Shown here one piece after another: positions 2,360-30,117 of a DNA stretch of 45,609 bases. Source of the DNA: Acidobacteriota bacterium (GTDB lineage: Bacteria > Actinomycetota > Acidimicrobiia > Spongiisociales > UBA5794); contig JADFIY010000002.1 in the NCBI GenBank assembly GCA_022566415.1, positions 1 to 45,609 on the forward strand, in the 5' to 3' direction. Position numbers and translations under genes: made by a program. A model generated the notes under the pieces. That model searched no databases, was not told the DNA's origin, and worked only from the letters and a program-made list of their open reading frames with translations. Positions within the stretch are counted from its first letter, which is position 1, and every line of letters starts with the position of its first letter.

Positions 2360-3592
2360 TCAGGTCCGCGGCACCGGGTCCCGGAGGATCGGCTGGGTCA
2401 TGCAGCGACTTCCGCCGCGGCCGCGGCCGAGTTCTGCGGCGTCAAACTCGATCACCTCGATGCCATGTTCGGTGAGGCGCTGGTTTGTCGCGCGGTTTCG
2501 CTCGTAGGCGACCACCACACCTGGCTCGATGGCGAGGGTGTTGTGACCGTCGTCCCACTGTTCGCGTAAATGCCGGATCGCGTCTCCCTCGGTGGAGACG
2601 AACTCGAGGTCGTCGTTGCCGAGCGCATCGCGCAGCGCCCGGCGCAGTGAGTCATAGGCCGTCACGTCGAGAGCTCGCTCCGAGCCGGGCCGGATCACAT
2701 GCACCTTCGAACCGTCGAGGACACCAGGGAACACGTTGAACAGGTTCACATCAACCATGGTGATGACCGTGTCCAGGTGCATCACCGCCCGCTCCTTCCT
2801 CAGGTGAACGACCACGACGTTGCGCACCGGCGAGTCGGCGAACAGGTTCCTGGCCAGCATCTCTACCGCGGCCGGGGTGGTTCGCTGGCTGAGCCCGACC
2901 ATGATGGTGTCCTCGGAGAGGACGAGCACATCGCCCCCCTCGATGCTTGCCGGGAGATGCTCATCCGGGCCGTCGCCGTACCAGGTGGGCCTGTCGCTGT
3001 CGGCGAACCGCGGATGATGGTCGTAGATCACCCGCACGATCTTCGACTCGTGCTCCCTGGCACTGTTTGCCATCACGCTGGATACCAGCCCGTTTCCGAT
3101 CCAGGAGGCGTTGTCTCGCATGAACAGCAGGTTCGGGAGCGGTGGCAGGACATAATGCAGCTGATCGGCAACCAGGTCCCCGTACAGGTGGTCGACGCCC
3201 CACTCCTCGAGCTCGGGCTCGAGCAGACCCCCGATGACCAGGTCGCTCACCCGCTCCACCGGCTCATCGCGCAGCCTCGCCTGCATCGACTCGGCGATGC
3301 GGGGACCGATACGAGCGGGGGCAAAGACGGTTTCGATGATTTTGTCGCGCACCACATCGTCACCGAGCACCTCTCGGAGCAGCTCGTCGAAGTAGAGGAC
3401 CTCCACCCCCCTGGACCGCAGGATGTCGGTGAACCGATCGTGCTCCTCCTGAGCTCGCTCCAGCCAGATGAGATCGTCGAAGAGCAAGTCCTCCTTGCTC
3501 TCCGGTGTGATCCTGGCGATGCCAAGACCGGGGCGGTGCACCATGACCGTCCGGAGTGGCCCGATTTCCGAGGAGACAAGCGGCGCGGTCAC
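2360..3592 (-). CDS. arcA: Arginine deiminase
   Basis: [76 protein letters not shown] start at 3592 overlaps the upstream small ORF stop (GTGA). Confidence 0.93.
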
Positions 3593-3750
3593 TGGGTCTC
3601 TTCTTTGGCCGCCTGGCGCAATCGCTCGACGAGCGCCGGATCCCCGTCGACCATCAGATCTTCGATCGGACCGCGTCCCCATAGCCACAGATCCATGGAT
3701 ACCAGCGTCGAGTCCGACCGAATGTGCGTGAGGTAGGTCTCACAATCCAT
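3589..3750 (-). CDS. 53-aa small protein translationally coupled to arcA
   Basis: [53 protein letters not shown]; 4-nt overlap with the arcA start. Confidence 0.55.
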
Positions 3751-5654: not shown

Positions 5655-7112
5655 TCAGCCGGCCACCTTCGCATTGAACCCCTCGATCAGCTCGTCGATG
5701 GGGTCGATCAGCGCCTGCACCGAGGTCCAGTAGTCCTCGTCGTACCATTGCGCCTGGATCTCGTCATAGGTCTTCCCCTGCTGCTCGACCCAGGTGTAGT
5801 ACTTGAGGTTGTGGATCCGCTTCCGGTCGTAGTACCCGAGCTCGTGCACGTGGTCGATTCCGGCACCGAGCAGGTAGCGGTGGTACGCCCCCGCCGCATC
5901 GAGAGCGGTGAACTCGCCGCGCTCGGCATTGAGCTCTTCGAGACGACTGCCGTACATCTCCATCGAGTCGGTGCCTACGGTGACGACGACGTCGTTCGAT
6001 CCCAACTCGAAATAGCGAGCGAACTTGATCGCCGACAGCAGATTCCCCGCCCCGGATATCCCGAGCAGAGGCAAGTCAGCGATCAGATCGGGCTTGACCC
6101 CCTGGTCGATGAGATAATCGATCCCGGCGGGCTCGTTGAACAGCCGGATGAGGCTGATTGTTGCCTCGTCGTCGAGGCCGATCACCATGTCGGTGTTCTT
6201 GACGTTGTGCACCCACGGGATGTGCTTGTCTCCGATTCCCTCGATCCGGTGCTCGCCGAACCCGTTGTACAGCATGGTCGGGCATTGCATCGCCTCGCCG
6301 GCGGCGATCTTCGAGGTCGGGTACATCTGCTTGAGGTAATCCCCGGCGGCAATGGTTCCTGCCGAGCCGGTAGCGAGCGTGACACCGCGGAAGGTGTCGC
6401 CGGGACCCATCGCCGCTTCGAGGGCCTCTGCCATCGCAGGCCCGGTCACCGAGTAGTGCCACAGGTAGTTCCCGAACTCGTCGAACTGGTTGAAGATGAC
6501 TAGGTCCTCACCGAAGAGGCTCAGCTCATTGCACTTGTCGAAGATCTCCTTGACGTTCGACTCGGAGCCCGGGGTCTTGATGATCTCGCCTGCGACGTTC
6601 TCCAGCCAGTCAAAGCGTTCCCGGCTCATCCCCTCGGGGAGGATGGCGATCGACTCGCAGCCGAGCAGGTTGGAATCGTATGCGCCGCCCCGGCAGTAGT
6701 TGCCGGTCGACGGCCACACCGCCTTCTGGGTCGCCGGATCGAACTGGCCGGTGACCAGGCGCGGAACGAGGCAGCCAAACGCAGCGCCCACCTTGTGCGT
6801 CCCGGTCGGAAACCACTTGCCGACGAGCAGAATGATGCGGGCGTCGACACCGGTGAGCTCCGGCGAGAACTCGATGGTGTTCACCGGTCCGAAGCCACCA
6901 CCGCTATCGGTCGGCTCATTGTGCCAGGTAATCCGGTACAGATTGAGCGGGTCGAGATCCCACAGCCCCACCGAACCAAGCTGGGCGACGATCTCGGCCG
7001 GGATCAACGACGGATCACGCATCTGCTTGAAGGTGGGGATGCGGAAGTTGCGCTCTCGTGCGATTTCGACCGCAGAATCGAGCACGGCGTCGTTGACGGT
7101 CAGATCGATCAT
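5655..7112 (-). CDS. Fold-type-II PLP-dependent enzyme (cysteine-synthase/TrpB-like, 485 aa)
   Basis: GTHKVGAAFG (candidate PLP lysine), PSTGNYCRGGAYDSNLLGC, GSAGTIAAGDYLKQMYP, AGNLLSAIKFARYFELGSNDVVVTVGTDS. Confidence 0.8.
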   Translation of the reverse strand: MIDLTVNDAVLDSAVEIARERNFRIPTFKQMRDPSLIPAEIVAQLGSVGLWDLDPLNLYRITWHNEPTDSGGGFGPVNTIEFSPELTGVDARIILLVGKWFPTGTHKVGAAFGCLVPRLVTGQFDPATQKAVWPSTGNYCRGGAYDSNLLGCESIAILPEGMSRERFDWLENVAGEIIKTPGSESNVKEIFDKCNELSLFGEDLVIFNQFDEFGNYLWHYSVTGPAMAEALEAAMGPGDTFRGVTLATGSAGTIAAGDYLKQMYPTSKIAAGEAMQCPTMLYNGFGEHRIEGIGDKHIPWVHNVKNTDMVIGLDDEATISLIRLFNEPAGIDYLIDQGVKPDLIADLPLLGISGAGNLLSAIKFARYFELGSNDVVVTVGTDSMEMYGSRLEELNAERGEFTALDAAGAYHRYLLGAGIDHVHELGYYDRKRIHNLKYYTWVEQQGKTYDEIQAQWYDEDYWTSVQALIDPIDELIEGFNAKVAG

Positions 7113-7205
7113 GTGGGTTCCCTTTGTGTGACTGGTTGCTGCGCGTCGGTTAGGTCGTGGTGCTGCGGTTCCCGCTCTTGGCCACGGGCCACATCGGGCC
7201 CGGGC

Positions 7206-8498
7206 TCAGCGGATTGCATCTCGCATGCCTGAATCGGATTGTGCACTACTCGCTTCGCCTCCGAGAGCTGCTTTCAGGGCATCGAGTGTGGGCTCGACCC
7301 GGATGGGCTCGGTGCCGGCGGCCGCCACCGCCTGCAGCGCCGATGCGACATCTTTGAGCCCGCTGCCGGTGGCCAGGACGACGACGCTGTCCTCGGCGCC
7401 GACCAGACCCCGTTTCGAGGCTGCCAGCAGTCCCGCATACGACGCCGCGCCGGCCGGCTCGGCGAACACGCCGCTGCCCCGGGCGAGCTGCGGAATGGCC
7501 GCCAGGATCTCGTCGTCGCTCACCCGCAGGTAGGCGCCACCGGTCTCGGTGACCGCGGCCATGGCCTTCACCCTGTCGCGGGGCAGGTCGGCGCTGATCG
7601 AATCCGCCACCGTATCGGCGGCAATGGCCGGCTTGGTGAGGACGTCCTCGCCGCTCTCGAAGGCCTGGACCAGGTAATCGCTGCCGGCGGCCTGGATGCC
7701 GAAGATGCGTGGAGCGATGTCGATCCAGCCAAGGGCAAGCGCATCCTTGACCGCCTTGTGCACACCGCCGATGATCGAGCCGTCGCCGACGCTGACGAAG
7801 ATGGCGCCCGGCACCTCCCAGCCCAGGTCCTCCAGAATCTCCAATCCGGCGGTCTTCTTTCCCTCGGTCATGTACGGGTTGTATCCGGTGTTGCGGTTGT
7901 ACCAGCCGTACTCGGCTGCCGCCTCCATGCACAGCCCGAAGGCGTCTGTGTAGGAGCCCTCGACGAGCACGACCGTCGACCCGTAGGCGAGGAGCTGGGC
8001 GATCTTGGCCTCGGGCGCCGATCCAGGTACGAAGATCACGCTGTCGAGATCGACGCTGGCCGCCATCCCGGCCAACGCCGCCGCGGCGTTGCCCGTGCTG
8101 GCGGTGGTGACGACATCGGCTCCCCACTCCAGTGCCTTGGCAACGGCTATCGCCGAGGCCCGGTCCTTGAGCGAAGCGGTGGGTTGGCGCCCCTCGTCCT
8201 TCACCCACACCCGGCTCACGCCGGCGACCGAAGCCAGACGAGGTGCGTTGTACATCGGCGTCCCGCCAACGGTCAGCGGCGGGACTCTCGAATCGGAGGC
8301 GATCGGCAGCAGCGGGCCGTAGCGCCACATGGTGTGGTTGTGGTTCTCCGCGAGCGATTCCTTGGTGAATGTGGAACCGATCTGGTCGTAGTCGTATTGG
8401 ACGTCGAGGATGCCTTCGTCACCGTGGCGCGGGCACACATAGCCTGCGAAGTCGGCGGGGTAGGTGGCGTCGCACACCACGCATGCCAACCCGATCAC
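7206..8498 (-). CDS. Threonine-synthase-like PLP enzyme with N-terminal Cys/His cluster
   Basis: MIGLACVVCDATYPADFAGYVCPRHGDEG; PTASLKDRASAIAVAKALE; ASTGNAAAALAGMAA; GDGSIIGGVHKAVKDAL; VVLATGSGLKD. Confidence 0.82.
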   Translation of the reverse strand: MIGLACVVCDATYPADFAGYVCPRHGDEGILDVQYDYDQIGSTFTKESLAENHNHTMWRYGPLLPIASDSRVPPLTVGGTPMYNAPRLASVAGVSRVWVKDEGRQPTASLKDRASAIAVAKALEWGADVVTTASTGNAAAALAGMAASVDLDSVIFVPGSAPEAKIAQLLAYGSTVVLVEGSYTDAFGLCMEAAAEYGWYNRNTGYNPYMTEGKKTAGLEILEDLGWEVPGAIFVSVGDGSIIGGVHKAVKDALALGWIDIAPRIFGIQAAGSDYLVQAFESGEDVLTKPAIAADTVADSISADLPRDRVKAMAAVTETGGAYLRVSDDEILAAIPQLARGSGVFAEPAGAASYAGLLAASKRGLVGAEDSVVVLATGSGLKDVASALQAVAAAGTEPIRVEPTLDALKAALGGEASSAQSDSGMRDAIR

Positions 8499-9436
8499 GG
8501 AACGATCCTGGTACCCGTCTCCCCGGCGACGGCTCGCTCGATGTTCTCCGGGTTGGTGATGAGCGCTTCCTTGCCACCACCTTCCAGGTACTGGACGACT
8601 GCCCGCATCTTTGGCGCCATTGAGCCCTCTGCGAAGTGGGTGCCCTCGTCGAGGTACCGCTTCACCTCATCGAGGGTGAACTCGTCGATCCATTCCTGGT
8701 CCGGCGTGCCGAAGTTGAGGGCGCACTTTTCCACCGCGGTCGAAATCAGCAGCAGGTCGGCGCCGACCTCGTTGGCCAGCAACGCCGAGGCGAGGTCCTT
8801 GTCGATGACCGCGGCGACACCGTGGAGATCTCCGTTGTCGTCGGCGACGACAGGGATCCCTCCTCCGCCGACACCGATGACCACGTTGCCGGCGTCGAGG
8901 AGCTGGCGGATGATCTCGATCTCCACGATCCTCTTCGGCTTGGGTGAGGCCACCACCCTTCGCCAGCCGCGGCCGGAGTCCTCTGTGCAGTCCCATCCGT
9001 CGTCCTCGATACGGCTCTGTGCCTGTTCTGAGTCCATGAACGACCCGATCGGCTTGGATGGGTTGTCGAAGGCCGGATCGTTGGGGTCGACCTCGACTTG
9101 GGTGACAACCGTGGCAACGTTCTTGTCGATTCCCCTGGCCCTGAAGTCGTTGATCAGGTTCTGCTGCAGCATGTAGCCGATGGCGCCCTGGGTATCGGCG
9201 CCGCAATAGTCGAGGGGTACCTCGTGCAGCTCGTTGCTAGCCAGTTCGGAGCGCCGCAGGATGAACCCGACCTGGGGACCGTTGCCATGGGTGATGGCGA
9301 CGTCCCAGCCGTCTTCGACCAGCGAGGCAATATGCTCGTCGGTCACCGCGGCGGCCTCGTACTGGTCCTGGACGGTCTGATGCTGGGCGTCGGGAATCAA
9401 TGAATTTCCCCCAATGGCGATGACGGCAAGCGGCAT
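8495..9436 (-). CDS. arcC: Carbamate kinase
   Basis: MPLAVIAIGGNSLI; THGNGPQVGFILRRSE; VGVGGGGIPVV; VIDKDLASALLANEVGADLLLISTAVEKCALNFG; FAEGSMAPKMRAVVQYLEGGGKEALIT. Confidence 0.95.
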   Translation of the reverse strand: MPLAVIAIGGNSLIPDAQHQTVQDQYEAAAVTDEHIASLVEDGWDVAITHGNGPQVGFILRRSELASNELHEVPLDYCGADTQGAIGYMLQQNLINDFRARGIDKNVATVVTQVEVDPNDPAFDNPSKPIGSFMDSEQAQSRIEDDGWDCTEDSGRGWRRVVASPKPKRIVEIEIIRQLLDAGNVVIGVGGGGIPVVADDNGDLHGVAAVIDKDLASALLANEVGADLLLISTAVEKCALNFGTPDQEWIDEFTLDEVKRYLDEGTHFAEGSMAPKMRAVVQYLEGGGKEALITNPENIERAVAGETGTRIVP

Positions 9437-9438
9437 TG

Positions 9439-10389
9439 CTACTCCACGGCTCCGAGCACCGAGGCGAGCAGTGCCATCCGCATCACCACACCGTTGTACG
9501 CCTCTTGCCAGTAGCGGGCGTGTTTGAGATGGTCGACCTCGGGGAGTAGCTCGTCCATCCGCGGCAGCGAGTGCAGGATGATCGAGTCGCCCTTGGCGCG
9601 CTTCATAACCTCAGCGGTGATTTGATAGTTGGGCGGGGTCAGCCCGTAATCGTCCTGCTTCTCCTGCCGGGACTGGGTGTAGTCGGGCTGGACCACCGGC
9701 TCCATGTAAATCACGTCGGCTTCTGCGATCACGTCGTCGATGTGCTCGGCGATCCGCCAGGTGGTGCCCTTCTCGTCGAGCTCGGCGAGGAAATCCTTGG
9801 TCGGTGACATCTCCTCCGGAGCCAGGATCACCATTTCGGCATCGAACTGGGATAGGGCATAGCCGAGTGAATGCATGGTCCGCATCCGGTGATCACCGAT
9901 GGCGATGAAGGTGAGCCCGTCGATGGTGCCCTTCTCCTTGTGCACCGTGTACAGGTCGGTGAGCACCTGGGTTGGGTGCTCGCCCCATCCGTCTCCGGCG
10001 TTGATCACCGGGATCGATGTCCAGTGTGCCGCCTCTTGAGGGGCGCCCTGGTCGAAATGGCGCATGACCAGCACGTCGCCGTAGTACTCGAGCATGTGCA
10101 CGGTGTCCTTGATCGACTCCTGGTAGAAGTCGCCGGCGCGGGTCATCTTGGCGTCGGCGAACCCGGTGACCGCGCCGCCAAGGCGGTGCATGGCGGCTTC
10201 GTGGGCGAGGCGGGTGCGGGTCGACGGTTGATAGAAGGCGGTGACCAGCGTCTTGTCGGCGAGAAGGTCGGTGTTGCGCCTTTCCCTGGCGATGGGCTCG
10301 AGGCGATCGGCGATGCCGAACAGGTGATAGAACTCGTTCCGCTCGAAGTCCTTGAGCGACAGGATGTCGCGTCCGGCAAAGCTACGCAT
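9439..10389 (-). CDS. Aspartate-transcarbamylase-like carbamoyltransferase with non-canonical substrate loop
   Basis: FYQPSTRTRLAHEAAMHRLGG; WGEHPTQVLTDLYT; IILHSLPRMDELLPEVD; YWQEAYNGVVMRMALLASVLG. ATCase MTRVQKER region reads MEPVVQPD. Confidence 0.85.
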   Translation of the reverse strand: MRSFAGRDILSLKDFERNEFYHLFGIADRLEPIARERRNTDLLADKTLVTAFYQPSTRTRLAHEAAMHRLGGAVTGFADAKMTRAGDFYQESIKDTVHMLEYYGDVLVMRHFDQGAPQEAAHWTSIPVINAGDGWGEHPTQVLTDLYTVHKEKGTIDGLTFIAIGDHRMRTMHSLGYALSQFDAEMVILAPEEMSPTKDFLAELDEKGTTWRIAEHIDDVIAEADVIYMEPVVQPDYTQSRQEKQDDYGLTPPNYQITAEVMKRAKGDSIILHSLPRMDELLPEVDHLKHARYWQEAYNGVVMRMALLASVLGAVE

Positions 10390-10465
10390 GGTGCCTCCTC
10401 AGGCCGAGGTTCGCCGGTGCCGAAACGTGGCGAAGCCGGCATCAGATCGTTGGTCTTGGCCGATT

Positions 10466-10482
10466 GGTCGTACGATAGTACC
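10466..10482. promoter_or_regulatory. Imperfect palindrome GGTcgTAcgataGTACC-like, candidate GntR operator
   Basis: ggtcgtacgatagtacc in the divergent intergenic region between the carbamoyltransferase and GntR genes; outer GGT/ACC and inner TA/TA are symmetric. Confidence 0.4.
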
Positions 10483-10513
10483 ATTACTCACACCATGCCA
10501 GCGGCTTCCACCT

Positions 10514-11245
10514 GTGATCACCCGTAATCCATCCCTGACCGAGCAGGTGAAGGCCAACCTCAAGGAGCGCATCCTCAACGACGGGTTCGAAGAGGGGCGG
10601 ATCCCTCCCGAGGCCGAGCTCGCCGCCGAGCTCGGGGTGAGCCGAACCACGGTGCGAGACGCGCTCGGCCGCCTCGAGCACGAAGGCGCCATTTCCCGGA
10701 GGCAAGGGTCGGGGACGTTTGTCAACAAGCCCGTGCTCCAGATCAAATCCCGGCTCGAGGAGATCTGGTCTTACGAACAGGTGCTCGAGGATCACGGGTA
10801 CACCCCGTCGGTGGACGTGTTGCGGGTGGAGACGGGTCCGGCCGACAATTCCACCGCAGCGGTCCTCGACCTGGACGGCGATTCCAACGTGCTGGTCATC
10901 GAGAAGCTGTTCCTGGAGGACGATCGACCCGTGGTGTTGACGGTCAACCGCATCCCCACCGACATCGTGACCGACGCCGAGTACGAGCGCCACAGCGCCA
11001 CTCCCGTCTACGAGTTTCTGGAGGAACAATGTGGCCGCACCCTCTCCTACTACCTCTCCGACATCGTGCCGGTGCAACTCGACGACGAGCAGGCCGGACG
11101 CCTCGGTGTCGAGCAGGGAACCCTTGCCGTCTCTTTCGATGAAGTCGGCTACGACCAGGACAACGCCCCCGTGGTGCACGCCACCTCGTACTTCCGTGAC
11201 GACCTGCTCCGATTCCGCCTGATCAGGAGACGGCCCGGAACATGA
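10514..11245 (+). CDS. GntR-family (HutC/UTRA type) transcriptional regulator
   Basis: VITRNPSLTEQVKANLKERILNDGFEEGRIPPEAELAAELGVSRTTVRDALGRLEHEGAISRRQGSGTFV; C-terminal UTRA-like domain. Confidence 0.9.
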   Translation: MITRNPSLTEQVKANLKERILNDGFEEGRIPPEAELAAELGVSRTTVRDALGRLEHEGAISRRQGSGTFVNKPVLQIKSRLEEIWSYEQVLEDHGYTPSVDVLRVETGPADNSTAAVLDLDGDSNVLVIEKLFLEDDRPVVLTVNRIPTDIVTDAEYERHSATPVYEFLEEQCGRTLSYYLSDIVPVQLDDEQAGRLGVEQGTLAVSFDEVGYDQDNAPVVHATSYFRDDLLRFRLIRRRPGT

Positions 11246-11270
11246 CCACGACCAACAGAAGGAGCACCTG

Positions 11271-12245
11271 ATGCAGACCCACCTACGCGGCCGTGACATG
11301 ATCACCACCCAGGAGTGGACCAAGGACGAACTCGACACCGTGATCGACGTCGCCGTCGACCTCAAGCGACGCCGCGCCCTTGGCGAGCCACACGCGCTGC
11401 TCCGCGACAAGGTGCTGGCCATGTTGTTCTTCTTCTCCAGCACCCGCACCCGAGCGAGCTTCGAGGCCGGAATGGCCCAACTCGGTGGCCACGCCATGTT
11501 CCTCGACTCCACCTCGACTCAGATCGGGCACGGTGATACCTGGAGGGAGATCGGCGAGATCCTCGGCCGATACGACGACGGGATCGCCATCCGCCAAGTC
11601 GACTGGGGAATCGGCAACGACTACATCAGGGCGGTGGCCGAGGCCAGCCGCACCCCAGTGCTCAACATGCAGTGCGACTGGTATCACCCGTTCCAGGCTC
11701 TGGCGGACCTGCTGACGATCATCGAGCACAAGGGCGATCCCCGGAGCCTGACCGTGAACGTGAGCTACGCCTATGCGGCCAGCTACCAGAAGCCGATCAG
11801 CGTGGCGCAGAGCGAGATCTTGTTGTTGACCCGGTACGGCGCCAACGTCAGGCTCACCCGACCCCCCGAGTTCACGCTGATGCCAGAGATCCTTGTCCAA
11901 GCGGAGGAGAACGCCAAAGCCGCGCACGGCTCGTTCGAGGTGATCGAAGATTTCGACGAAGGGATGAAGGGTGCCGACGTCGTCTACGCAAAGAGCTGGG
12001 GCTCCATGCTCACCACAGACGACCTCGACGAGTCGGCCAAGATCTCAGAGCAGTACACCGATTGGATCACCGACGAACGCCGCATGGCGATGGCCGACGG
12101 CGATGCCATCTACATGCACCCGCTACCGGCGGACCGCAATATCGAGGTCACAGACGAGGTGATCGACGGCCCGAACAGCCGGGTCTTCGACCAGGCGGAG
12201 AACCGCCTCCACGTCCAGAAAGCGGTGATGGCGCTCACCATGTGA
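11271..12245 (+). CDS. Ornithine-transcarbamylase-superfamily carbamoyltransferase (YgeW/OTC-like)
   Basis: FFSSTRTRASFEAGMAQLGGHAMFLD; CDWYHPFQALADLLTIIEHKG; DAIYMHPLPADRNIEVTDEVIDGPNSRVFDQAENRLHVQKAVMAL. Confidence 0.87.
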   Translation: MQTHLRGRDMITTQEWTKDELDTVIDVAVDLKRRRALGEPHALLRDKVLAMLFFFSSTRTRASFEAGMAQLGGHAMFLDSTSTQIGHGDTWREIGEILGRYDDGIAIRQVDWGIGNDYIRAVAEASRTPVLNMQCDWYHPFQALADLLTIIEHKGDPRSLTVNVSYAYAASYQKPISVAQSEILLLTRYGANVRLTRPPEFTLMPEILVQAEENAKAAHGSFEVIEDFDEGMKGADVVYAKSWGSMLTTDDLDESAKISEQYTDWITDERRMAMADGDAIYMHPLPADRNIEVTDEVIDGPNSRVFDQAENRLHVQKAVMALTM

Positions 12246-13641: not shown

Positions 13642-15579
13642 CTACATCCAATCGAGTGGCGCCACGGTTACTGGTTCCGCGATGCCTTTGGCGTCAACGT
13701 CGTACTGGTCGCCAACGCGGAACGTATCGTCGAGCTCGACCACCGCCTCGTGGCTCAGCAGGATCTCGTCGCCGGCAGCAGCGGAACCAATGCGGGCTGC
13801 GAGATGCACCTGCTGACCGACCAGCTCTCCATCCGCTTCCAGGATCGGGCCGGCATGGATGCCGATCCTCACCTTCGGTGCGAAGCCAGTGTCCTTCCGG
13901 TGCTGACGCAAGGTACGTTGGATTTCGATGGCGCACCTGGCGGCGTCGTCCGGGGACTCGAAGGTCGCGAAGAATCCGTCCCCCGTGTGGTTGACCTCGT
14001 CGCCGCCGTTATTGACGAAGATATCCCGCAGCGTCCGGTCGTGCCACGCGATGAGGTCTGCCCACGCGTCGTCTCCGATGGCGCCGATCAGGCTGGTCGA
14101 GGCCACAATGTCGGTGAACATCATCGTGCGCACGGCCGGTGTCATCGCGGCGGCTCCTGCCTGGGACATCTCGGCCAGCCGCGCCAGGTCCGCGCGAGCG
14201 CCGAGCTCCTCGAACTGGCTCTTCGCGGCGTCGAGCTCGAGCTTCCCCATCTCGGCCGACCCACTCGCCGTCAGCGCCAGGGCGAGGTCGCAACGGGCCC
14301 GAGCGGTTTCGTACGGAAGTCTTTCAACGACCAGGTCGTCGACGACCTTCTGGTGCAAGGCGACAGCGTCGACCTGGCGGCCCTCGGCGGAGGCGATTCG
14401 CGCCGAGCCCTGGGTGGCGAACGTACGCAGCAGATCGGAGTCGAAACGCTCTGCCAGCTCAGCCAGCTCAGCCGAGTGGCGCTCGGCCGGCTCGGAGAGA
14501 TCGGCCGCTAGAGCGATCTCGATCGAGCTCGGCAACAGCTTGGCCCGTGTCAGGAGATCCTCGATCCCGTCCAATGCAGATTCGATCATCGAAGAGGCCG
14601 CCGCGGCATCGCCATCTGACAGCTTCAACAGCGCCATCCCCGGCATCGGGCTCGACCCCAACGAATGCGCTTTGCGGAAAGCCTCGTCCGCGGCGTCGCG
14701 GTCACCGAGGTTGAGACGAATCATTCCCAGCTCATTGAACGCCGCCGCCATGTAGGGGCCGAAGTCGCCCAGCTCGTCCGCGGCGCGGCTCGCCTCGGCC
14801 TCGGCATCGGACCAAGCGCCCCGCAGCCGCATCATCTCGGAACGATGGATCCGGCAGATTCCCGGGTATCCGGAGGCATTTCCCTGTTCCTCACACCACC
14901 GCATGGCCTGATCGCTCCACTCGGCGGCGCGGCGATAGTCCGCCATCGACGCGCAGACGTCGATCATGTTGCAGTAGATGCGCCCGGCGACGCGTGGCCC
15001 CACCTCGCCGGTGACAACACTGATCATCGAATCCTCCATCAACGCCATGCCACGCTCAACGTCACCCGCGGCAATCGAGAAGCGTCCCTGATCATGAAGG
15101 CCGAGCACTTCGACTTCGCGGTCGCCGGTGTCCCTCCCGATCTGCTCCACCTGTGACGCCAGCTCGAGTGCTTCCTGGAGGCCGTTCTCGCTGCCGGCCG
15201 CGAACACGGCCTCGAGGCGGCGAAGGTTGCCGAGCGTCGGCGTCGGTGGCTCGTCTTGGAGAAGACGAGAGGCTCGCGCCATCCACCCTCGTGCCGCCGA
15301 CGGCTGGAGGCGCAACGCATGGTGCTCGGCGAGGTCGACCGCCAGCCGTGCGGCGTCGATGTTGCGGCCGGCTCCCGAATATGTCCTGAAGGCGCGTTCC
15401 TGAGCAGCGATGGTGTCGTCCAGGCTTCCACACCACCAGGCGGACTCTGCCAATGCTTCGAGGTGCTCGGGCTCGCGTTCCTCGGCGTCGAGCAGCGGGA
15501 GCAGTTGCTCGTAGGCAATTGCCCACTCGTGTCGCTCCCAGGCACGCATCCCGGAGGCAATGTTCGTCTCCGACATCAA
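13642..15579 (-). CDS. TPR-repeat protein with C-terminal class III adenylate/guanylate cyclase domain
   Basis: C-terminal TMMFTDIVASTSLIGAIGDDAWADLIAWHDRTLRDIFVNNGGDEVNHTGDGFFATFESPDDAARCAIEIQRTL; N-terminal ~450 aa helical TPR-like. Confidence 0.82.
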   Translation of the reverse strand: MMSETNIASGMRAWERHEWAIAYEQLLPLLDAEEREPEHLEALAESAWWCGSLDDTIAAQERAFRTYSGAGRNIDAARLAVDLAEHHALRLQPSAARGWMARASRLLQDEPPTPTLGNLRRLEAVFAAGSENGLQEALELASQVEQIGRDTGDREVEVLGLHDQGRFSIAAGDVERGMALMEDSMISVVTGEVGPRVAGRIYCNMIDVCASMADYRRAAEWSDQAMRWCEEQGNASGYPGICRIHRSEMMRLRGAWSDAEAEASRAADELGDFGPYMAAAFNELGMIRLNLGDRDAADEAFRKAHSLGSSPMPGMALLKLSDGDAAAASSMIESALDGIEDLLTRAKLLPSSIEIALAADLSEPAERHSAELAELAERFDSDLLRTFATQGSARIASAEGRQVDAVALHQKVVDDLVVERLPYETARARCDLALALTASGSAEMGKLELDAAKSQFEELGARADLARLAEMSQAGAAAMTPAVRTMMFTDIVASTSLIGAIGDDAWADLIAWHDRTLRDIFVNNGGDEVNHTGDGFFATFESPDDAARCAIEIQRTLRQHRKDTGFAPKVRIGIHAGPILEADGELVGQQVHLAARIGSAAAGDEILLSHEAVVELDDTFRVGDQYDVDAKGIAEPVTVAPLDWM

Positions 15580-15696: not shown

Positions 15697-16281
15697 TCAG
15701 CCATCAGACAGAAATGCCTGGTAGTCCTGTGGCGTGTTGATATCCCGGGGCGCGGTTTGGGCGACCGTCACCCTGGCGACCCTTCCCGAGTCGTCGTACG
15801 ACAGTATCCGCCACAACACCTTCGGCCCTTCGACCTTGGCGGCCTCGTCGAGCGCGGCCCTTGACAGGAGGAACGGGTGGCTGGCCCGATCGAGATACGC
15901 CGTCATCGCCGCCCACGGCGACTCCGCTTCCCACCAGTCGATTACGGTATCGATCACCTCGGAAGAGATCCCGGGCATGTCTGCGGGCAGGGTGACGAAA
16001 GCATCGGCCTCGACCGATTTCGCACCTCGCACCACCGAAGCCATGTTGGGTAGGTGAAAGTCCGGGTTGAAGATCACGGTCGCCCGCTCGGTGACCAGTG
16101 AGTCGCCCACCGCCTTGGCGTTCGCTCCGGTGACGACAACGACATGATCGAGTCGCGACGCCTCCGCGCTGGCGATCACGACATTGAGCAGAGTCGATCC
16201 TCGGTACGGCAAGAGCTGCTTTGGCTCGCCCATGCGGATTGCCGATCCGGCGGCGAGCACAATGCCTGCGATGGCGGCCAT
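15697..16281 (-). CDS. MocA/YgfJ-like molybdenum-cofactor nucleotidyltransferase
   Basis: IAGIVLAAGSAIRMGEPKQLLPYRGSTLLNVV...LPADMPGISSEVIDTVI...DINTPQDYQAFL. Confidence 0.87.
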   Translation of the reverse strand: MAAIAGIVLAAGSAIRMGEPKQLLPYRGSTLLNVVIASAEASRLDHVVVVTGANAKAVGDSLVTERATVIFNPDFHLPNMASVVRGAKSVEADAFVTLPADMPGISSEVIDTVIDWWEAESPWAAMTAYLDRASHPFLLSRAALDEAAKVEGPKVLWRILSYDDSGRVARVTVAQTAPRDINTPQDYQAFLSDG

Positions 16282-16282
16282 C

Positions 16283-18502
16283 TCAGACTCCTGCGATGTC
16301 CTGGGGACGCACCGGCACCCTGTTCAGGGGCCTGCCCGTCGCCGCCCGAATGGCGGCCACGACTGCGGGCGTCGAGCTGATCGTCGGGGACTCACCGATG
16401 CCCTTGGCGCCGAACGGCCCCCAATGGGCAGGCTCTTCGATCAGGCGTGAGCCCACATCGGGCATATCGAGCAGGGTGGGGATCAGATAGTCGGTGAAGG
16501 TCGGGTTCAGGATGACTCCATCCTCCACGATGAGCTCTTCCATGATGGCGAACCCGACCCCCTGGGCGATGCCGCCCTCGAGCTGGCCGACGATGGCTTG
16601 CGGGTTGAGCGCCTTGCCCACATCCTGAGCGGTGTCGATCTGGACCACTCGCACCAGCCCAAGCTCCGGATCGACGTCGACCACGGCCCGATGTGCCGCC
16701 ACCACGAAACCGGCGTGGGGATTGCCCTGACCGAACTCGTCCGGTTCCTCGGTCGGCGGGTGCCGGTAACGAACCCATTGCTCGATTGGGCCGTCGGCGG
16801 TCACCGCGTCGAGGGTCGCCACCAGCTCGCCTCTGTCGTACACCCCGTCGTTGGTGAGCTCGTCACCGCCGAACTGTTGGAGGATCTTGTCGCGGAGCCC
16901 GACGGCGGCCTCATAGACGGCGCCACCGGTCATCTGGGTCTGTCGCGACGCCGAAGTCGACCCGGCCGAGCCAATCTGCGAGGTATCGGCGGAAAGCCAG
17001 GCAACAGCCTCTATGCCCAGCACGGTGCGGGCGATTTGCTCACATATCGTCACCAAGCCTTGGCCTACCTCGATTGCGGCGGTGTGGATCTCCAAACCCG
17101 CCGGGGTCAGGATGAGGAGAACCTCGGAGAAGTCGTCGAACGCCTCGGAGAATGCCAGGTTCTTGAGGCCGAGGGCAAAGCCAACACCCCTCACCACCGC
17201 GTCCTTCGGCGTGGTCAGACCGGTTCCTCCTGGAAGGCGCCTCGGGTCGTCGGGAATTGCCGCGTCCGGCATCGGGATCGACTCGAGCTCATCGATGACT
17301 CGCAGCGTCGGCAGCGAGCCCTCAACGATCTGACCCGACGTTGCCAGCGGGTCTCCCGGGCCGAGGGCATTTCGCCGACGCACCTCGAGCGGGTGCAGCC
17401 CGAGCACCTCGGCGAGCCGGTCCATCTGACTCTCGTAGGCAAAACACACCTGCACCGCCCCGAAGCCGCGCATCGCCCCTGCCGGTGGATTGTTGGTCCT
17501 GGACACGGCGGCGTCTACAAAGACGTTGTCGCATTTGTACGGGCCAACGGTGAAGAACGAGGCGTTGGCGAGCACAGCATGGCTGGTGTGAGCGTAAGCG
17601 CCGCCGTCGAGGACCATGTCGACGGTCACCTTCACCAGCCTCCCCTCATCATCGGCCTCGTGCCGGTACCGCATCCGAGCAGGATGGCGCTTGACGTGGC
17701 CGGCGAACGACTCGGTCCGGTCGTACACGATGCGCACCGGGCGGCCGGTCCGTAACGCCAGCATCGCAACATGGATGTGCAGCGAGATGTCCTCGCGGGC
17801 TCCGAAGGCACCGCCGATCCCGACAGGGTGGCACCGGACGTCGTCGGGCTCCATGCCGAGGCTGGCGATGATCTGGGCGTGGTCGATGTGGATCCACTGG
17901 CTGGTCACATGGAGATCCACCCCACCGCTGCCATCCGGGATCGCCAACCCCGCTTCGGGGCCGAGCGGGGCCTGATCCTGGATGGCGGTCTCGTACTCAC
18001 CCTCGATCACCACCGACCCTGCGGCGTCGGCGTCACCGCGGCGGATCACCATGTCGCGATAGGTCTCCCCCGCCGCTCTCGCCTGGTCGGGGTCGGTGAC
18101 CGGTGGGAGCGGCTCCCACTCGACGATGATCGCCTCAACCGCGGCCCTGGCCGTCTCCTGGTCATCGGCGGCCACGATCGCAACCGGCTCTCCCCAATAC
18201 CGGGCAACGCCATCGCACAATACGGGCTGATCCGGCTCCACCTGGCCGAAGGTGGGACGGCCGGGAACGTCGTCCTGGGTGAGGACCGCCCTGACGCCGG
18301 ACATGACCACGGCGGGGGTGATGTCGAGCTCGACCAACCTGGCGTGCGCATACGGGCTGCGCAGCGTGGCCCCCCACAGCATGCCGTCAATCCACAGATC
18401 TGAGCCGTAGGCGAAGTTGCCGCTGAGCTTGGCGACGCCGTCCGGCCGCGGCGCGTTCTCACCGATCCCGGCGGCAACGCGTTCCTTGGTGCCGACGGTC
18501 AT
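16283..18502 (-). CDS. Xanthine dehydrogenase family, molybdopterin-binding subunit
   Basis: RPDGVAKLSGNFAYGSDLW; GGAFGAREDISLHIHVAMLALRTGRPVRIVYDR; AGAMRGFGAVQVCFAYESQMDRLAEVLGL; QLEGGIAQGVGFAIMEE; GPFGAKGIGESP. Confidence 0.93.
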   Translation of the reverse strand: MTVGTKERVAAGIGENAPRPDGVAKLSGNFAYGSDLWIDGMLWGATLRSPYAHARLVELDITPAVVMSGVRAVLTQDDVPGRPTFGQVEPDQPVLCDGVARYWGEPVAIVAADDQETARAAVEAIIVEWEPLPPVTDPDQARAAGETYRDMVIRRGDADAAGSVVIEGEYETAIQDQAPLGPEAGLAIPDGSGGVDLHVTSQWIHIDHAQIIASLGMEPDDVRCHPVGIGGAFGAREDISLHIHVAMLALRTGRPVRIVYDRTESFAGHVKRHPARMRYRHEADDEGRLVKVTVDMVLDGGAYAHTSHAVLANASFFTVGPYKCDNVFVDAAVSRTNNPPAGAMRGFGAVQVCFAYESQMDRLAEVLGLHPLEVRRRNALGPGDPLATSGQIVEGSLPTLRVIDELESIPMPDAAIPDDPRRLPGGTGLTTPKDAVVRGVGFALGLKNLAFSEAFDDFSEVLLILTPAGLEIHTAAIEVGQGLVTICEQIARTVLGIEAVAWLSADTSQIGSAGSTSASRQTQMTGGAVYEAAVGLRDKILQQFGGDELTNDGVYDRGELVATLDAVTADGPIEQWVRYRHPPTEEPDEFGQGNPHAGFVVAAHRAVVDVDPELGLVRVVQIDTAQDVGKALNPQAIVGQLEGGIAQGVGFAIMEELIVEDGVILNPTFTDYLIPTLLDMPDVGSRLIEEPAHWGPFGAKGIGESPTISSTPAVVAAIRAATGRPLNRVPVRPQDIAGV

Positions 18503-18960
18503 GTGCCGTCCCCCGCCAGCCGGTCGAAGGCGCGGAGCAGCGCTCCGTAGCCGGTGCAGCGACAGATGTTGCCGGAGAACGCCTCTCGCATCGCTTCCTC
18601 GTCGGGGTTGGGGTTGGCTGCGAACAGATGGGCGGCGGTGATGACAAAGCCTGGGGTGCAGAAGCCACATTGCACCCCGCCCTCGTCGAGGATCGCCTGT
18701 TGGATCGGGTGTAGGACGCTGCCGTGGGCGATCCCCTCGACCGTTGTGATCGTCGTCCCTTCACAATCGCCCACCATGACGAGACAAGAGCACAGGTTGG
18801 CGCCGTCGACGATCACCGAACACGACCCACACTCACCCTGCTCGCAGGCGTTCTTGGATCCGGCAAGACCGAGGTTGTCGCGGAGCACCGTCAGCAGGCT
18901 CTCCCACCCTGCGACGGTGGCGCTGCGTTCCTCTCCGTTGATGGTGAAGGTGACGATCAT
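18499..18960 (-). CDS. Xanthine dehydrogenase family, 2Fe-2S subunit
   Basis: KNACEQGECGSCSVIVDGANLCSCL and VQCGFCTPGFVITAAHL...FSGNICRCTGYGALLRA; all 8 cluster Cys present. Confidence 0.95.
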   Translation of the reverse strand: MIVTFTINGEERSATVAGWESLLTVLRDNLGLAGSKNACEQGECGSCSVIVDGANLCSCLVMVGDCEGTTITTVEGIAHGSVLHPIQQAILDEGGVQCGFCTPGFVITAAHLFAANPNPDEEAMREAFSGNICRCTGYGALLRAFDRLAGDGT

Positions 18961-19760
18961 GCGGCCAGGCACCTCTCCACCAGGCGGCGGGCGAGGACCC
19001 CGGAAGCGTGTCTCCGATAGGCCTCCGTCGATCGGTGATCGGAGATCGGTCGAACCTCGTCGGAGACGATGCGGGCGAACTCTGTCAGCGCCGCATCGGA
19101 GATCGATGTCTCCGCGTTGATCATCTCCTCTGCTCGGTAGGCGCGGATCGGCACGGGTGCCACCGAGCCCAGCGCCACCCGGAACCCGTCTTCGCCTCGG
19201 GCAACAACGCAGTTCACCATGGCGATCACCATCACATTGCGAACCCCAACCTTGGCGAACTCCTGGGAGACCGGCATGTGCTCGGGCAGGAGAATCGCGG
19301 TGATGATCTCGTCGGGAGCGAGCGTCGTCTCTTTCACCCCGACGAAGAACTCGTCCCACGCGATGATCCGGGTACCACGCCTCTGCGAGGCGACCTCGAT
19401 CTCGGCATCGATCGCCGCGATCCAGGGCAGCCCATCCCCCGCCGGGCTCGCCGTCGCCACGTTGCCACCCAGGGTGCCGGCGGCACGGATCTGCGGCGAT
19501 CCGATGGTCCGGGCGAGTTGAGCGAGGGCTCGGTGCGGACCGTCCTCGAGACGCGCCCAGGTCACCGCAGCCCCGATGCGCCGACCTTCCCACTCCAGCA
19601 GCTCCTCGCAACTGCGCACCGCGATGACTCCGGCTGGGCGGTGATAGCTGAGATTCACCTCCACCATGAGGTCGGTGCCCCCGGCGAGCAATTCTGCCTC
19701 AGGGTGCTCGGCCCTCGCATCGAGCGCGGTTGATAGATCACCAGCAGCCAAGAAGTCCAT
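18957..19760 (-). CDS. Xanthine dehydrogenase family, FAD-binding subunit
   Basis: LLAGGTDLMVEVNL; IGSPQIRAAGTLGGNVATASPAGDGLPWIAAIDAEI. Confidence 0.93.
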   Translation of the reverse strand: MDFLAAGDLSTALDARAEHPEAELLAGGTDLMVEVNLSYHRPAGVIAVRSCEELLEWEGRRIGAAVTWARLEDGPHRALAQLARTIGSPQIRAAGTLGGNVATASPAGDGLPWIAAIDAEIEVASQRRGTRIIAWDEFFVGVKETTLAPDEIITAILLPEHMPVSQEFAKVGVRNVMVIAMVNCVVARGEDGFRVALGSVAPVPIRAYRAEEMINAETSISDAALTEFARIVSDEVRPISDHRSTEAYRRHASGVLARRLVERCLAA

Positions 19761-19810: not shown

Positions 19811-21178
19811 CTAGCCCAACAGCCGATTGGCCGCCGCGTTGTGCCGCTCCAGCAACTGCGGCAGGTCGATGCCTACGATCTCCCCCTCGGTCACCACCGC
19901 ACGTCCGTGGACGTAGGTGTGGTCGACAGCGACCGGAGCGGCAAACAGCACCGCGGCCAGCGGATCGCCCAGGGCTCCGGCGTACTCGACCCGGTCCAGG
20001 GAGATCGCGGTGAAGTCGGCGGCCTTGCCGGGCTCGAGCGAACCGACGTCGGTCCGGCCGAGCACGGCGGCCGACCCTCTCGTTGCCAGCCGCAGCGCCT
20101 CGCGGGCCGAAAAAAGGGGGCCTTCCTCACCGGCGGCGTCGAGCCGGGCGAGCAGCATTGCCTGACGGGCCTCGCCAAGCAGATGGCTGCCATCGTTGCT
20201 CGCCGAACCGTCGACCCCCAACCCGGTCCTCACCCCGGCGGCGAGATACTTGCGCAGCGGGCCTATGCCCGAGGCGAGGCGCATGTTGGACGTCGGGCAG
20301 TGGGCCACGCCGGTGCCCGCCGACGCCATACGGGCGATCTCGGCGTCGTCGACAAAGACGCCGTGGGCGTACCACACGTCTTCTCCGGCCCAGCCCAGAT
20401 CTTCCATCAGCTCGACGGGCCGCATCCCACAGAGCCCAAAACAGAACTGCTCCTCGTCGAGGGTCTCGGCCACGTGCGTGTGCAGATGTACTCCGTACGC
20501 CCGGGCCAGGGCGGCAGCCTCCCGCATCAGATCGGTCGTCACCGTGAACGGCGAGCACGGGGCGACGACGACGCGCAACATGGCGCCCGGTTCGGGATCA
20601 TGAAACGTCTCAATCGCTACCTGGGTTTCGGAAAGGATGACCGATTCGCTCTCGACGACCGAGTCCGGTGACAGCCCGCCGTCGCTTTCCCCGAGTGACA
20701 TCGATCCCCGGGCCAGGTGGACCCGGAGCGGGATCGCCTCCGCAGCCTCTACCTGGTCTTCAAACGATGAGCCGTTGGGATACAAGTAAAGGTGGTCCGA
20801 CGAGGTGGTGCATCCAGACAATGCCAGCTCGGCGAGGGCGACCTGGGTTGAGAGCGAAACGTCTTCCGGGGTCATCCGCGCCCAGATCGGATACAGGGCG
20901 CGCAGCCAGTCGAACAGACCGGCGTCTTGGGCGCCGGGTACCGCCCTGGTCAGCGTTTGATAAAAGTGGTGGTGGGTGTTGATCAGCCCGGGCAGGACAA
21001 CGTGGCCGGAGAGATCGAGCACCTCGTCGGCATCGTCGGGAAGGTCCACGGTCGGCCCGACCTGTTCGATCCATCCGTCTACCGCATACAGGCCCCCATC
21101 ATCGATCTCGGTGCCCGCATCATCCATCGTCGCCAGCACGGTGGTGTGTTTGATCAGAAGGCTGCTCACGGGCGCCAA
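19811..21178 (-). CDS. 8-oxoguanine deaminase-like amidohydrolase
   Basis: VVLPGLINTHHHFYQTLTRA; HLHTHVAETLDEEQFCFGLCGMRPVELMEDLGWAGEDVWYAHGVFVDDAEI; GLGVDGSASNDGSHLLGEARQAMLLAR. Confidence 0.88.
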   Translation of the reverse strand: MAPVSSLLIKHTTVLATMDDAGTEIDDGGLYAVDGWIEQVGPTVDLPDDADEVLDLSGHVVLPGLINTHHHFYQTLTRAVPGAQDAGLFDWLRALYPIWARMTPEDVSLSTQVALAELALSGCTTSSDHLYLYPNGSSFEDQVEAAEAIPLRVHLARGSMSLGESDGGLSPDSVVESESVILSETQVAIETFHDPEPGAMLRVVVAPCSPFTVTTDLMREAAALARAYGVHLHTHVAETLDEEQFCFGLCGMRPVELMEDLGWAGEDVWYAHGVFVDDAEIARMASAGTGVAHCPTSNMRLASGIGPLRKYLAAGVRTGLGVDGSASNDGSHLLGEARQAMLLARLDAAGEEGPLFSAREALRLATRGSAAVLGRTDVGSLEPGKAADFTAISLDRVEYAGALGDPLAAVLFAAPVAVDHTYVHGRAVVTEGEIVGIDLPQLLERHNAAANRLLG

Positions 21179-22060: not shown

Positions 22061-22204
22061 GAACCAATGATCGGCGGTGACTCCCAGACCTTGATGGGCC
22101 GCTCGACTCCAATCGTTGACGCAGCCCGCATCTGATGAGAACACCGGCATCGGTAGAATGTGGAAAACCGTCGCTATGCGCGCCTGAGAGGAGCGATCTC
22201 GACC

Positions 22205-22936
22205 GTGATCCGCACCTACCACCGACCCACAACGCTCGAGGACGCTCTCTCTCTGCTGGAGTCGGACGACGCCGCGGTCCTCGCTGGGGGCACATCGCTG
22301 ATCCCCTCGCTGATCCCCGCCGGTACAGCAACGGCGGTCGTCGACCTCCAGGACCTTGACCTCGACACCATCGGTCTCGACAACGACCGCATCGCCATCG
22401 GTGCGATGGCACGCATCAGGGACCTCGTCGAGTCCGATCTGGTGCCGTTGATCCTGCGTGACCTCGCCAGACGCGAGGCTCCGAACACGATTCGCAACGC
22501 GGCAACGTTGGGAGGAACCATCGCATCGCGGGATCCGGAGAGCGAGCTGGTTGCCGGCCTGCTCGTCCACGACACCAGGGTCACGATCGTCACCGGCGAC
22601 GGACCGCAAACGGTCGCTCTCCCCGACTACCTCGCAACACCGACGCCCGGGATCATCACCGGTGTCACCATCGAGCGCGGAGGGGCCGCGAAAGCACAAC
22701 GGACAGGGCGCACCCCCGCCGACCGGCCGATCGTGATGGCGGTGGCGCGGCGCACCGACGATGGGGCGGTGCATCTCGCCCTGACCGGGATCGCGGCATT
22801 CCCCGTGCTCGTCGATGTCGGCGAGCTCACCGCGTTCGACCCGCCAGGAGACTTCCGCGGCACCACCGAATACCGGCGCCATCTCGCCGAGACCCTGGCG
22901 GCTCGCGTGATCACCGCGGTCGGTGAATCCATATGA
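22205..22936 (+). CDS. FAD-binding Mo-hydroxylase subunit, YgfM-like
   Basis: TYHRPTTLEDALSLLESDDAAVLAGGTSLIPSLIPAGTATAVVDLQDLDL; EAPNTIRNAATLGGTIASRDPESELVAGLLVHD; stop overlaps the xdhD-like start. Confidence 0.85.
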   Translation: MIRTYHRPTTLEDALSLLESDDAAVLAGGTSLIPSLIPAGTATAVVDLQDLDLDTIGLDNDRIAIGAMARIRDLVESDLVPLILRDLARREAPNTIRNAATLGGTIASRDPESELVAGLLVHDTRVTIVTGDGPQTVALPDYLATPTPGIITGVTIERGGAAKAQRTGRTPADRPIVMAVARRTDDGAVHLALTGIAAFPVLVDVGELTAFDPPGDFRGTTEYRRHLAETLAARVITAVGESI

Positions 22937-25846: not shown

Positions 25847-26644
25847 GTGACAGCAAATCAACCGCTGCTTGCCGAGATGTCGACGGCAATAGCCGAGCGA
25901 CGGCCGGTCGTGCTCGCCACCATCGTTGCCACCAGACGATCGGTGCCACGCCACTCCGGTACCAAGATGCTCATTTACTCCCAGCGTGAGCAGTCGGGGA
26001 CCATCGGCGGTGGCGAGCTGGAGTCGCGGGTGATCGAGGACGCACTCGAAGCGCTGCGCACCGGCAAGACTCGTCTGGAGACATACGCCCTTGTCGACCC
26101 CGATCGGGGGGACCCCGGCGTTTGCGGTGGAGAGCTGACCGTCTACCTGGAGCCGTACATGCCCCCACACACCATCTTTGTCATCGGCATCGGCCACGTT
26201 GGTGCGGCCGTCGTCGACCTCGCCCACTGGCTTGGCTATCGAACGATCGCGAGCGACGACCGAGCCGAACGGGTCAGCGAGGAGGCGCTGCCTGATGTCG
26301 ACGTGCGAATTGCCGGCTCCGTTGCCGCTGCCCTCGCCGCGGCGCCGGTCACCGAAGACACTTCGGTTGTGGTCGTCTCCAGGAGCGTCGACATCGACCT
26401 GGACGCCATCCCCCGGCTGCTGGAGACCCCGGCCCGCTACATCGGCGTCATGGGCAGCGAGCGGCGCTGGATCACCACCAAGCAACAGCTCGTCGAAAAC
26501 GGCCTCGCCGAGGCCGCTCTCGATCGAATCCACGTCCCGGTCGGCATCGAGCTCGGTGCCGAGACCGTTGAGGAGATCGCAGTATCGATCCTCTCTGAGA
26601 TCATCAAGGAGACCCGTTCGGCAATCATTCAAGAAGACGACTGA
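25847..26644 (+). CDS. xdhC: XdhC/CoxI-family Mo-enzyme maturation factor
   Basis: VVLATIVATRRSVPRHSGTKMLIY; GTIGGGELESRVIEDALEAL; VFVIGIGHVGAAVVDLAHWLGY-type Rossmann motif; YIGVMGSERRW. Confidence 0.9.
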   Translation: MTANQPLLAEMSTAIAERRPVVLATIVATRRSVPRHSGTKMLIYSQREQSGTIGGGELESRVIEDALEALRTGKTRLETYALVDPDRGDPGVCGGELTVYLEPYMPPHTIFVIGIGHVGAAVVDLAHWLGYRTIASDDRAERVSEEALPDVDVRIAGSVAAALAAAPVTEDTSVVVVSRSVDIDLDAIPRLLETPARYIGVMGSERRWITTKQQLVENGLAEAALDRIHVPVGIELGAETVEEIAVSILSEIIKETRSAIIQEDD

Positions 26645-29735: not shown

Positions 29736-29817
29736 TCGAACCTCCCTCTTCGCCATGAGTTTCGCAGGTGCGACGTGTTTCGGGCGCCGGCGATATGTGC
29801 TTGCCCAGATGCCCGGC

Positions 29818-30117
29818 ATGAGTCATCCTGTCACCAAGACAATGGGTGTTCTACACATCGCGGTCGGCGGCGGAGCAGCAACTCTCGTGTTGCTGGCGAT
29901 GACTCGAGCCATCGGCGGGCCTATCGGGGCGGCGACGCTCTTGCTCGCCGTCGTCGTCGTCGCACTGACCATCGGTGTCGGCACCGCCGCCGGCGTCACC
30001 GTCTGGAAGGAGCGACGGGGAGGAGCGGTGTCGTGTAGCTCATGTCACCGACCGATGACGCAGATAGGCGACTACCGAGTATGCGCCAACTGTGATGGGA
30101 TCGTCGCCCGCCGCTGA
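29818..30117 (+). CDS. Small membrane protein with C-terminal zinc-ribbon-like CxxC motifs
   Basis: Two hydrophobic helices then SCSSCHRPMTQIGDYRVCANCDGIVARR. Confidence 0.55.
   Translation: MSHPVTKTMGVLHIAVGGGAATLVLLAMTRAIGGPIGAATLLLAVVVVALTIGVGTAAGVTVWKERRGGAVSCSSCHRPMTQIGDYRVCANCDGIVARR

Follow-up and report, generated by a model that had tools for sequence, protein, structure and literature searches.

The 45,609-nucleotide contig JADFIY010000002.1 (hereafter the window) belongs to a draft genome, 2.57 Mb and 92% complete, of a bacterium of the class Acidimicrobiia (GCA_022566415.1). Its positions 5655-12245 carry a block of six genes encoding a pseudo-aspartate transcarbamylase (pseudo-ATCase), a carbamate kinase, two pyridoxal phosphate (PLP) enzymes, a GntR-family regulator and a YgeW-like transcarbamylase (Table 1). 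This block very likely belongs to the reductive urate pathway, and it probably forms the final section of a variant of this oxygen-independent route of purine and urate degradation. Of the proteins of this pathway, SsnA, XdhD/YgfM and a YgeW-type enzyme are encoded in the window. The initial annotation had suggested that two different transcarbamylases each remove one ureido group from a di-ureido intermediate. Three observations support this idea: the 11271 gene does not encode an arginine-pathway ornithine transcarbamylase (OTC), the 9439 gene does not encode a biosynthetic PyrB, and the block is linked to molybdenum (Mo) hydroxylase genes in other genomes. The enzyme chemistry itself is a prediction.

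In the reductive pathway, urate is converted successively to yanthine, ureidomethyl-hydantoin, 2,3-diureidopropionate, a mono-ureide, diaminopropionate and pyruvate (PMC12507026; commentary PMC12990295), 2,3-diureidopropionate being an established intermediate (PMC12507026). In the established route, YgeW makes one carbamoyl phosphate and YgeY hydrolyses the other ureido group (PMC12507026; PMC12990295). In the variant proposed here, xanthine dehydrogenase (XDH) would make urate and XdhD-YgfM would reduce it to yanthine. Ring reduction and opening would be the task of YgfK and SsnA, after which a hydantoinase would yield 2,3-diureidopropionate. The YgeW-like enzyme would then phosphorolyse one ureido group and the pseudo-ATCase the other, instead of the hydrolase YgeY, and the carbamate kinase would convert both carbamoyl phosphates to ATP. 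Finally, the ThrC-like and CysK-like PLP enzymes would split 2,3-diaminopropionate, by analogy to pyruvate and ammonia, instead of YgeX. Substrates, reaction direction and products are inferred, as is the way in which the two transcarbamylases, and likewise the two PLP enzymes, share their tasks. The chances are about even that this stage, through double phosphorolysis, gives two ATP from each urate rather than one, and that the PLP pair is a diaminopropionate-degrading system distinct from YgeX.

All six reading frames are open at the positions first described, and the arrangement is kept in dozens of genomes, so that the block is real and not a product of chance. The four minus-strand genes are closely packed, with ends that overlap or almost touch (8495/8498, 9436/9439), save for a 93-base gap ahead of the last gene. 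The carbamate kinase scores above two curated cut-offs (395.5 versus 266 and 377.5 versus 358 bits). Although the open GntR frame extends from 10352, the helix-turn-helix domain starts only at about residue 60, placing the real start near 10,500.

A pseudo-aspartate transcarbamylase distinct from PyrB

The transcarbamylases were compared in an alignment of 62 sequences, including 20 of the 9439 family, 15 PyrBs from the class and that of E. coli. The carbamoyl phosphate motifs STRT and HPTQ are found in all 20 pseudo-ATCases, which also retain the arginine at the position of E. coli R167. In these 20 proteins, RxQ is replaced by EPVVQP/A (EPVMQP once) and HPLP/HPGP by HSLP; both motifs are kept in the 15 PyrBs of relatives and in E. 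coli PyrB. The window protein has VQP, the others VQP or VQA. In the tree, the family forms a separate clade apart from PyrB, with 100/100 support. A second, genuine-type ATCase is present in 17 of the 19 class genomes that carry the pseudo-ATCase. A biosynthetic PyrB role for the 9439 gene was thus rejected, from the loss of RxQ, the separate clade and these additional ATCases. We could not find a genuine PyrB in the window's genome nor in one other genome (G018), which may be due to draft incompleteness or, in the window's genome, to a real loss.

By its motifs (STRT, HPTQ, HSLP, VxP), the family corresponds to the group 3 pseudo-ATCases defined by Barba et al. in 2013 (PMC4016543). An AlphaFold model of the window protein was poor (mean predicted local distance difference test score, pLDDT, 58.9, with a shallow alignment) and was not used. 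The chance that the pseudo-ATCase takes the place of YgeY in ureido removal appears even or somewhat better.

A YgeW-like knotted transcarbamylase

The hallmarks of YgeW, a knot loop WAYSPSYGKPLSVPQ and a KSW motif, are found in the 11271 protein as YAYAASYQKPISVAQ and AKSW. The protein contains HPLP, while some relatives have HCLP. In the tree it falls in one clade with E. coli YgeW against ArgF (100/97). Because it scores below the NCBIfam YgeW equivalog cut-offs (177 versus 453 and 167 versus 500 bits), we call it YgeW-like and not YgeW.

Two PLP enzymes resembling ThrC and CysK

The 7206 protein scores 290 versus a cut-off of 303 bits with one ThrC profile and 172 versus 167 bits with another. 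A further ThrC, above both cut-offs, is encoded on contig 145 of the same genome, and a biosynthetic ThrC role for the 7206 gene was rejected on that basis. The second PLP enzyme (5655 gene, here PLPa) has a core resembling CysK and cystathionine beta-synthase (CBS), flanked by extensions of about 80 residues at the N-terminus and 90 at the C-terminus. The PLP lysine is invariant; in the window protein it is the catalytic Lys107, located in FPTGTHK. PLPa scores far under every CysK/CBS profile cut-off. Its AlphaFold model is confident (pLDDT 88.9, predicted template modelling score 0.91) and has fold-type II. Foldseek searches with this model gave cystathionine beta-synthase and cysteine synthase as nearest structures, over about 330 residues, and indicated no specific activity. 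CysK/CBS-type enzymes act on beta-substituted alanines. Such chemistry would be compatible with diaminopropionate as a substrate of PLPa but is no proof of it. The odds that the ThrC-like protein and PLPa jointly take the place of YgeX are even or slightly above.

A second clade of PLPa (L056, L058, L060-L067) pairs with a different ThrC-like protein. By eye, its members lie among seemingly housekeeping genes (RNase PH, ClpP, ComM-like), in genomes that all have SsnA.

Linkage and distribution of the block

As the initial annotation said, ygeX, ygeY and hyuA are missing from the window; YgeY and YgeX also have no match above cut-off anywhere in the window's genome. We sampled 148 genomes of the class and fetched 40 loci around the block. 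All five cassette genes (pseudo-ATCase, YgeW-like enzyme, carbamate kinase, ThrC-like protein and PLPa) are present in 13 of these loci, and others have four. Full cassettes mostly adjoin XDH, XdhD, SsnA or 8-oxoguanine deaminase genes.

PLPa is found in 42 of the 148 genomes. SsnA occurs in all 42, versus 12 of the 106 others (Fisher p 2e-26), and in all 19 pseudo-ATCase genomes (Fisher p 4e-10), p-values that overstate independence because genomes of one class share ancestry. Within the order, SsnA is present in 28/28 genomes with PLPa versus 0/8 without. Of the 49 genomes with the short form of SsnA, PLPa is present in 42, in 4 of them together with YgeX; all 7 genomes without PLPa have YgeX, and none lacks both (p 4e-6). 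YgeY never exceeds its cut-off in the 148 genomes.

Five loci (L036, L037, L038, L045, L047) carry two AguB-like nitrilase-family carbamoyl hydrolases beside the ThrC-like and PLPa genes, with the transcarbamylases absent, as if hydrolysis removed both ureido groups.

Beyond the class, a GTDB-wide scan for PLPa gave at least 584 stretches with homologues, of which the best 80 loci were analysed. They come mostly from Anaerolineae and other Chloroflexota, with representatives in Desulfobacterota, Myxococcota, Halanaerobiales, Synergistaceae, Clostridiaceae and one Mycoplasmatota. A ThrC-like gene lies upstream of PLPa in 55 of these 80 best loci (at 1.3 kb or less in 51), and other purine or ureide genes are found in 58. 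The block recurs in Acidimicrobiia and Anaerolineae beside XDH, XdhD, SsnA, YgfK or hydantoinase genes, which bears out the linkage to Mo hydroxylase genes. Several Anaerolineae show the order pseudo-ATCase, YgeW, carbamate kinase, ThrC-like, PLPa, which is found in L122 and L193. In other Anaerolineae the order is YgeY, YgeW, carbamate kinase, ThrC-like, PLPa, hydantoinase; L186 has it, as do L175 and L163. Of 21 loci that combine YgeW with the pseudo-ATCase or YgeY, the pseudo-ATCase is the sole one of the two in 12 and YgeY in 8, while 1 locus has both. An otherwise E. coli-like cluster of Desulfobacula (L152) has the ThrC-like and PLPa genes and no YgeX. Outside the class, eight actinobacterial genomes also carry the pseudo-ATCase, with genes for a YgeW-like enzyme, the kinase, XDH or SsnA next to it; on contigs of sufficient length, either YgeX or a ThrC-like/PLPa pair is present as well.

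Two Chloroflexota loci (L126:3546-5631 and L153:11151-13246) instead contain, next to a carbamate kinase and the PLP pair, knotted transcarbamylases in tandem, two in number and each from a different further deep lineage. This is an independent two-transcarbamylase arrangement. In two Anaerolineae loci (L193:8961-9908 and L169:9018-9977), a family 2 glycosyltransferase with no obvious ureide link lies between the ThrC-like and PLPa genes. As judged by eye, genes for nucleoside ABC transporters and for the F420 cofactor flank some Anaerolineae loci.

Alternative assignments

The initial annotation had offered as a competing explanation an ordinary arginine deiminase pathway, made of arcA at 2360, the OTC-like gene and the carbamate kinase. 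In that case the 11271 gene would encode an OTC and the neighbouring genes would be unrelated. The arcA-like gene does lie 2 kb from the block and exceeds one cut-off (468.9 versus 414 bits, NF002381), though not that of TIGR01078, and OTC profiles are the best matches of the 11271 protein, yet under cut-off. However, arcA is absent beside the block in the 40 class loci and the 80 best GTDB loci. The ornithine-binding D.W.SMG and HCLP are missing from the 11271 protein, which has AKSWGSML and HPLP and groups with YgeW, and a genuine ArgF, with DVWASMG and HCLP, is encoded on contig 229. We thus reject this explanation as highly improbable. Only slightly less improbable is that the pseudo-ATCase is an allantoate or ureidoglycine carbamoyltransferase of the oxidative uricase-allantoin pathway. 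Such an activity was demonstrated for Rxyl_2847 of Rubrobacter, a pseudo-ATCase that also adjoins a carbamate kinase (PMC4016543). However, the motifs fit Barba group 3 (HSLP, VxP) and not group 1 of Rxyl_2847 (HPLA) (PMC4016543), and the genes nearby encode SsnA, XdhD and YgfK rather than uricase or allantoinase. Uricase is found in 5 of the 148 class genomes, one of them with the block, and is absent from 18 of the 19 pseudo-ATCase genomes; within the order it is present in 4/8 genomes without the block versus 1/28 with PLPa.

A less remote alternative, though still an unlikely one, is that the block belongs to the reductive urate pathway while the pseudo-ATCase and the PLP enzymes act at other steps. 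For instance, the pseudo-ATCase could work in the synthetic direction, PLPa could be a diaminopropionate racemase, or a PLP enzyme could eliminate urea from albizziin. The fold and sequence of PLPa indicate just a CysK/CBS-like family of beta-substitution or elimination, and which ureido group is removed first is unsettled even in E. coli (PMC12990295). PLPa also occurs together with YgeX in 4 class genomes, and in the Mycoplasmatota locus (L177) it adjoins YgeX with no ThrC-like gene. Degradative roles are nevertheless favoured by the swap in the YgeY slot, the pairing with carbamate kinase and the complementarity with YgeX. The variant ending proposed here also has points against it, to which this coexistence with YgeX belongs: it may be that PLPa does not simply replace YgeX. 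One locus (L149) has YgeY and the pseudo-ATCase together. YgfK was not found in this metagenome-assembled genome, by a draft gap or a real loss; it is present, in full or shorter form, in 24 of 26 other genomes checked. The best hydantoinase/dihydropyrimidinase gene of the genome lies outside the window, on contig 106 (L109, 1-4642). It adjoins genes for a class III aminotransferase, a carbamoyl amidase and a semialdehyde dehydrogenase, and may for this reason serve reductive pyrimidine breakdown. Phosphorolysis is thermodynamically unfavourable, as noted for YgeW (PMC12507026), and would have to be pulled by the kinase. The shared ancestry of the class genomes also weighs on this side.

Comparison with known systems

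The E. coli cluster (ygeW-ygeX-ygeY-hyuA-yqeA and ygfK-ssnA-ygfM-xdhD; PMC12507026) shares with the window homologues of YgeW, a YqeA-type kinase, YgfM, XdhD, SsnA, YqeB, YqeC and MocA, and with relatives of the window also YgfK. In contrast, the window has no YgeX or YgeY, adds the pseudo-ATCase and contains two different PLP enzymes. Its hydantoinase is outside the cluster, possibly shared with pyrimidine breakdown, and its regulator is of the GntR family whereas E. coli has the sigma-54 regulator YgeV. In the clostridial UacX/UacY variant (PMC12507026), a ureido-removing step of the same pathway is likewise replaced. However, UacY is a hydrolase that produces no carbamoyl phosphate, while the replacement proposed in the window would add a second energy-yielding step.

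In Nocardioides JS614, Barba et al. described a pseudo-ATCase of their group 2 that neighbours xdh genes and a homologue of ygeW (PMC4016543). The window protein shares STRT, HPTQ, HSLP and VxP with group 3, but its ygeW/xdh neighbourhood resembles group 2. Since the group 2 motif is GX[SC] and group 3 adjoins an asparaginase and a Na+ symporter, the window combines traits that were split there. Groups 2 and 3 were left there without an assigned function, and that study described no PLP pair (PMC4016543). Rxyl_2847 (PMC4016543) is, like the window protein, an ATCase homologue that has lost RxQ and stands by a carbamate kinase in purine breakdown, but it has HPLA and belongs to an oxidative pathway with uricase and allantoinase. 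The two PLP enzymes share sequence and fold with the ThrC and CysK/CBS families; they differ in that the genome has a separate ThrC and that PLPa has extra ends and scores far below the cut-offs.

The pathway itself has already been described, and the proximity of a pseudo-ATCase to ygeW has been on record since 2013. In the open-access literature searched, we could not find a published version with two transcarbamylases or with the ThrC-like/PLPa pair, nor a description of this ending. Li et al. (2025) counted YgeX via Pfam PF00291 (PMC12507026, figure legend). Both PLP enzymes of the window belong to this family, so the variant would presumably not have stood out in that survey.

If the proposed roles are correct, two widespread families misannotated as aspartate carbamoyltransferase and threonine/cysteine synthase would gain functions. 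Both new activities would be spread over Acidimicrobiia, Anaerolineae and other lineages. Energy-yielding, oxygen-independent use of urate would extend beyond gut bacteria to environmental Actinomycetota and Anaerolineae, with a second ATP gained from the same intermediate. Because YgeY and YgeX seem to be exchanged for the additional enzymes, the variant also offers a clean way to address which ureido group leaves first.

Other genes of the window

Table 1 Genes of the block and its surroundings in the window
Feature	Position	Strand	Remarks
Arginine-deiminase-like (arcA-like) gene	2360-3688		2 kb from the block
PLPa, PLP enzyme (PALP) of fold-type II, CysK/CBS-like core	5655-7112	-	Proposed half of a diaminopropionate-consuming pair
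ThrC-like PLP enzyme (PALP)	7206-8498	-	Paralogous to the ThrC of contig 145; PLPa is its proposed partner
Carbamate kinase, YqeA/ArcC type	8495-9436	-	Profile scores above curated cut-offs
Pseudo-ATCase	9439-10389	-	STRT, HPTQ, HSLP; RxQ lost; proposed second ureido-removing enzyme (YgeY role)
GntR-family regulator with UTRA ligand domain	10500 (start approximate)-11245	+	
YgeW-like knotted transcarbamylase	11271-12245	+	STRT, HPFQ, HPLP; KSW replaces DVW.SMG of OTC
MocA-like molybdenum cofactor nucleotidyltransferase	15697-16281	-	
XDH trio	16283-19760	-	PucD-like Mo subunit ~16283-18500, 2Fe-2S ~18499-18957, FAD 18957-19760
8-oxoguanine deaminase-type amidohydrolase	19811-21178	-	644.5 versus cut-off 532 bits
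YgfM-like FAD subunit	22160-22936	+	
XdhD-like Fe-S/Mo subunit	22933-25839	+	39% identical to E. coli XdhD
XdhC-family (25847), YqeB (26644), YqeC (27429)	25847-28133	+	Maturation genes; YqeB over cut-off
SsnA-like amidohydrolase	28713-29819	-	Short form typical of the class

The position of the xdhC-family, yqeB and yqeC genes straight after xdhD suggests a selenium-type molybdenum hydroxylase. Glu606 of E. coli XdhD was considered as a urate-reductase marker but is uninformative: it is Asp in the window XdhD, Glu is also found in the PucD-type subunit, and the loop is gappy. Proteins with adenylate/guanylate-cyclase domains are encoded at 13642-15579 and 30124-33522, one with a TPR-like region and one with an AAA ATPase domain.

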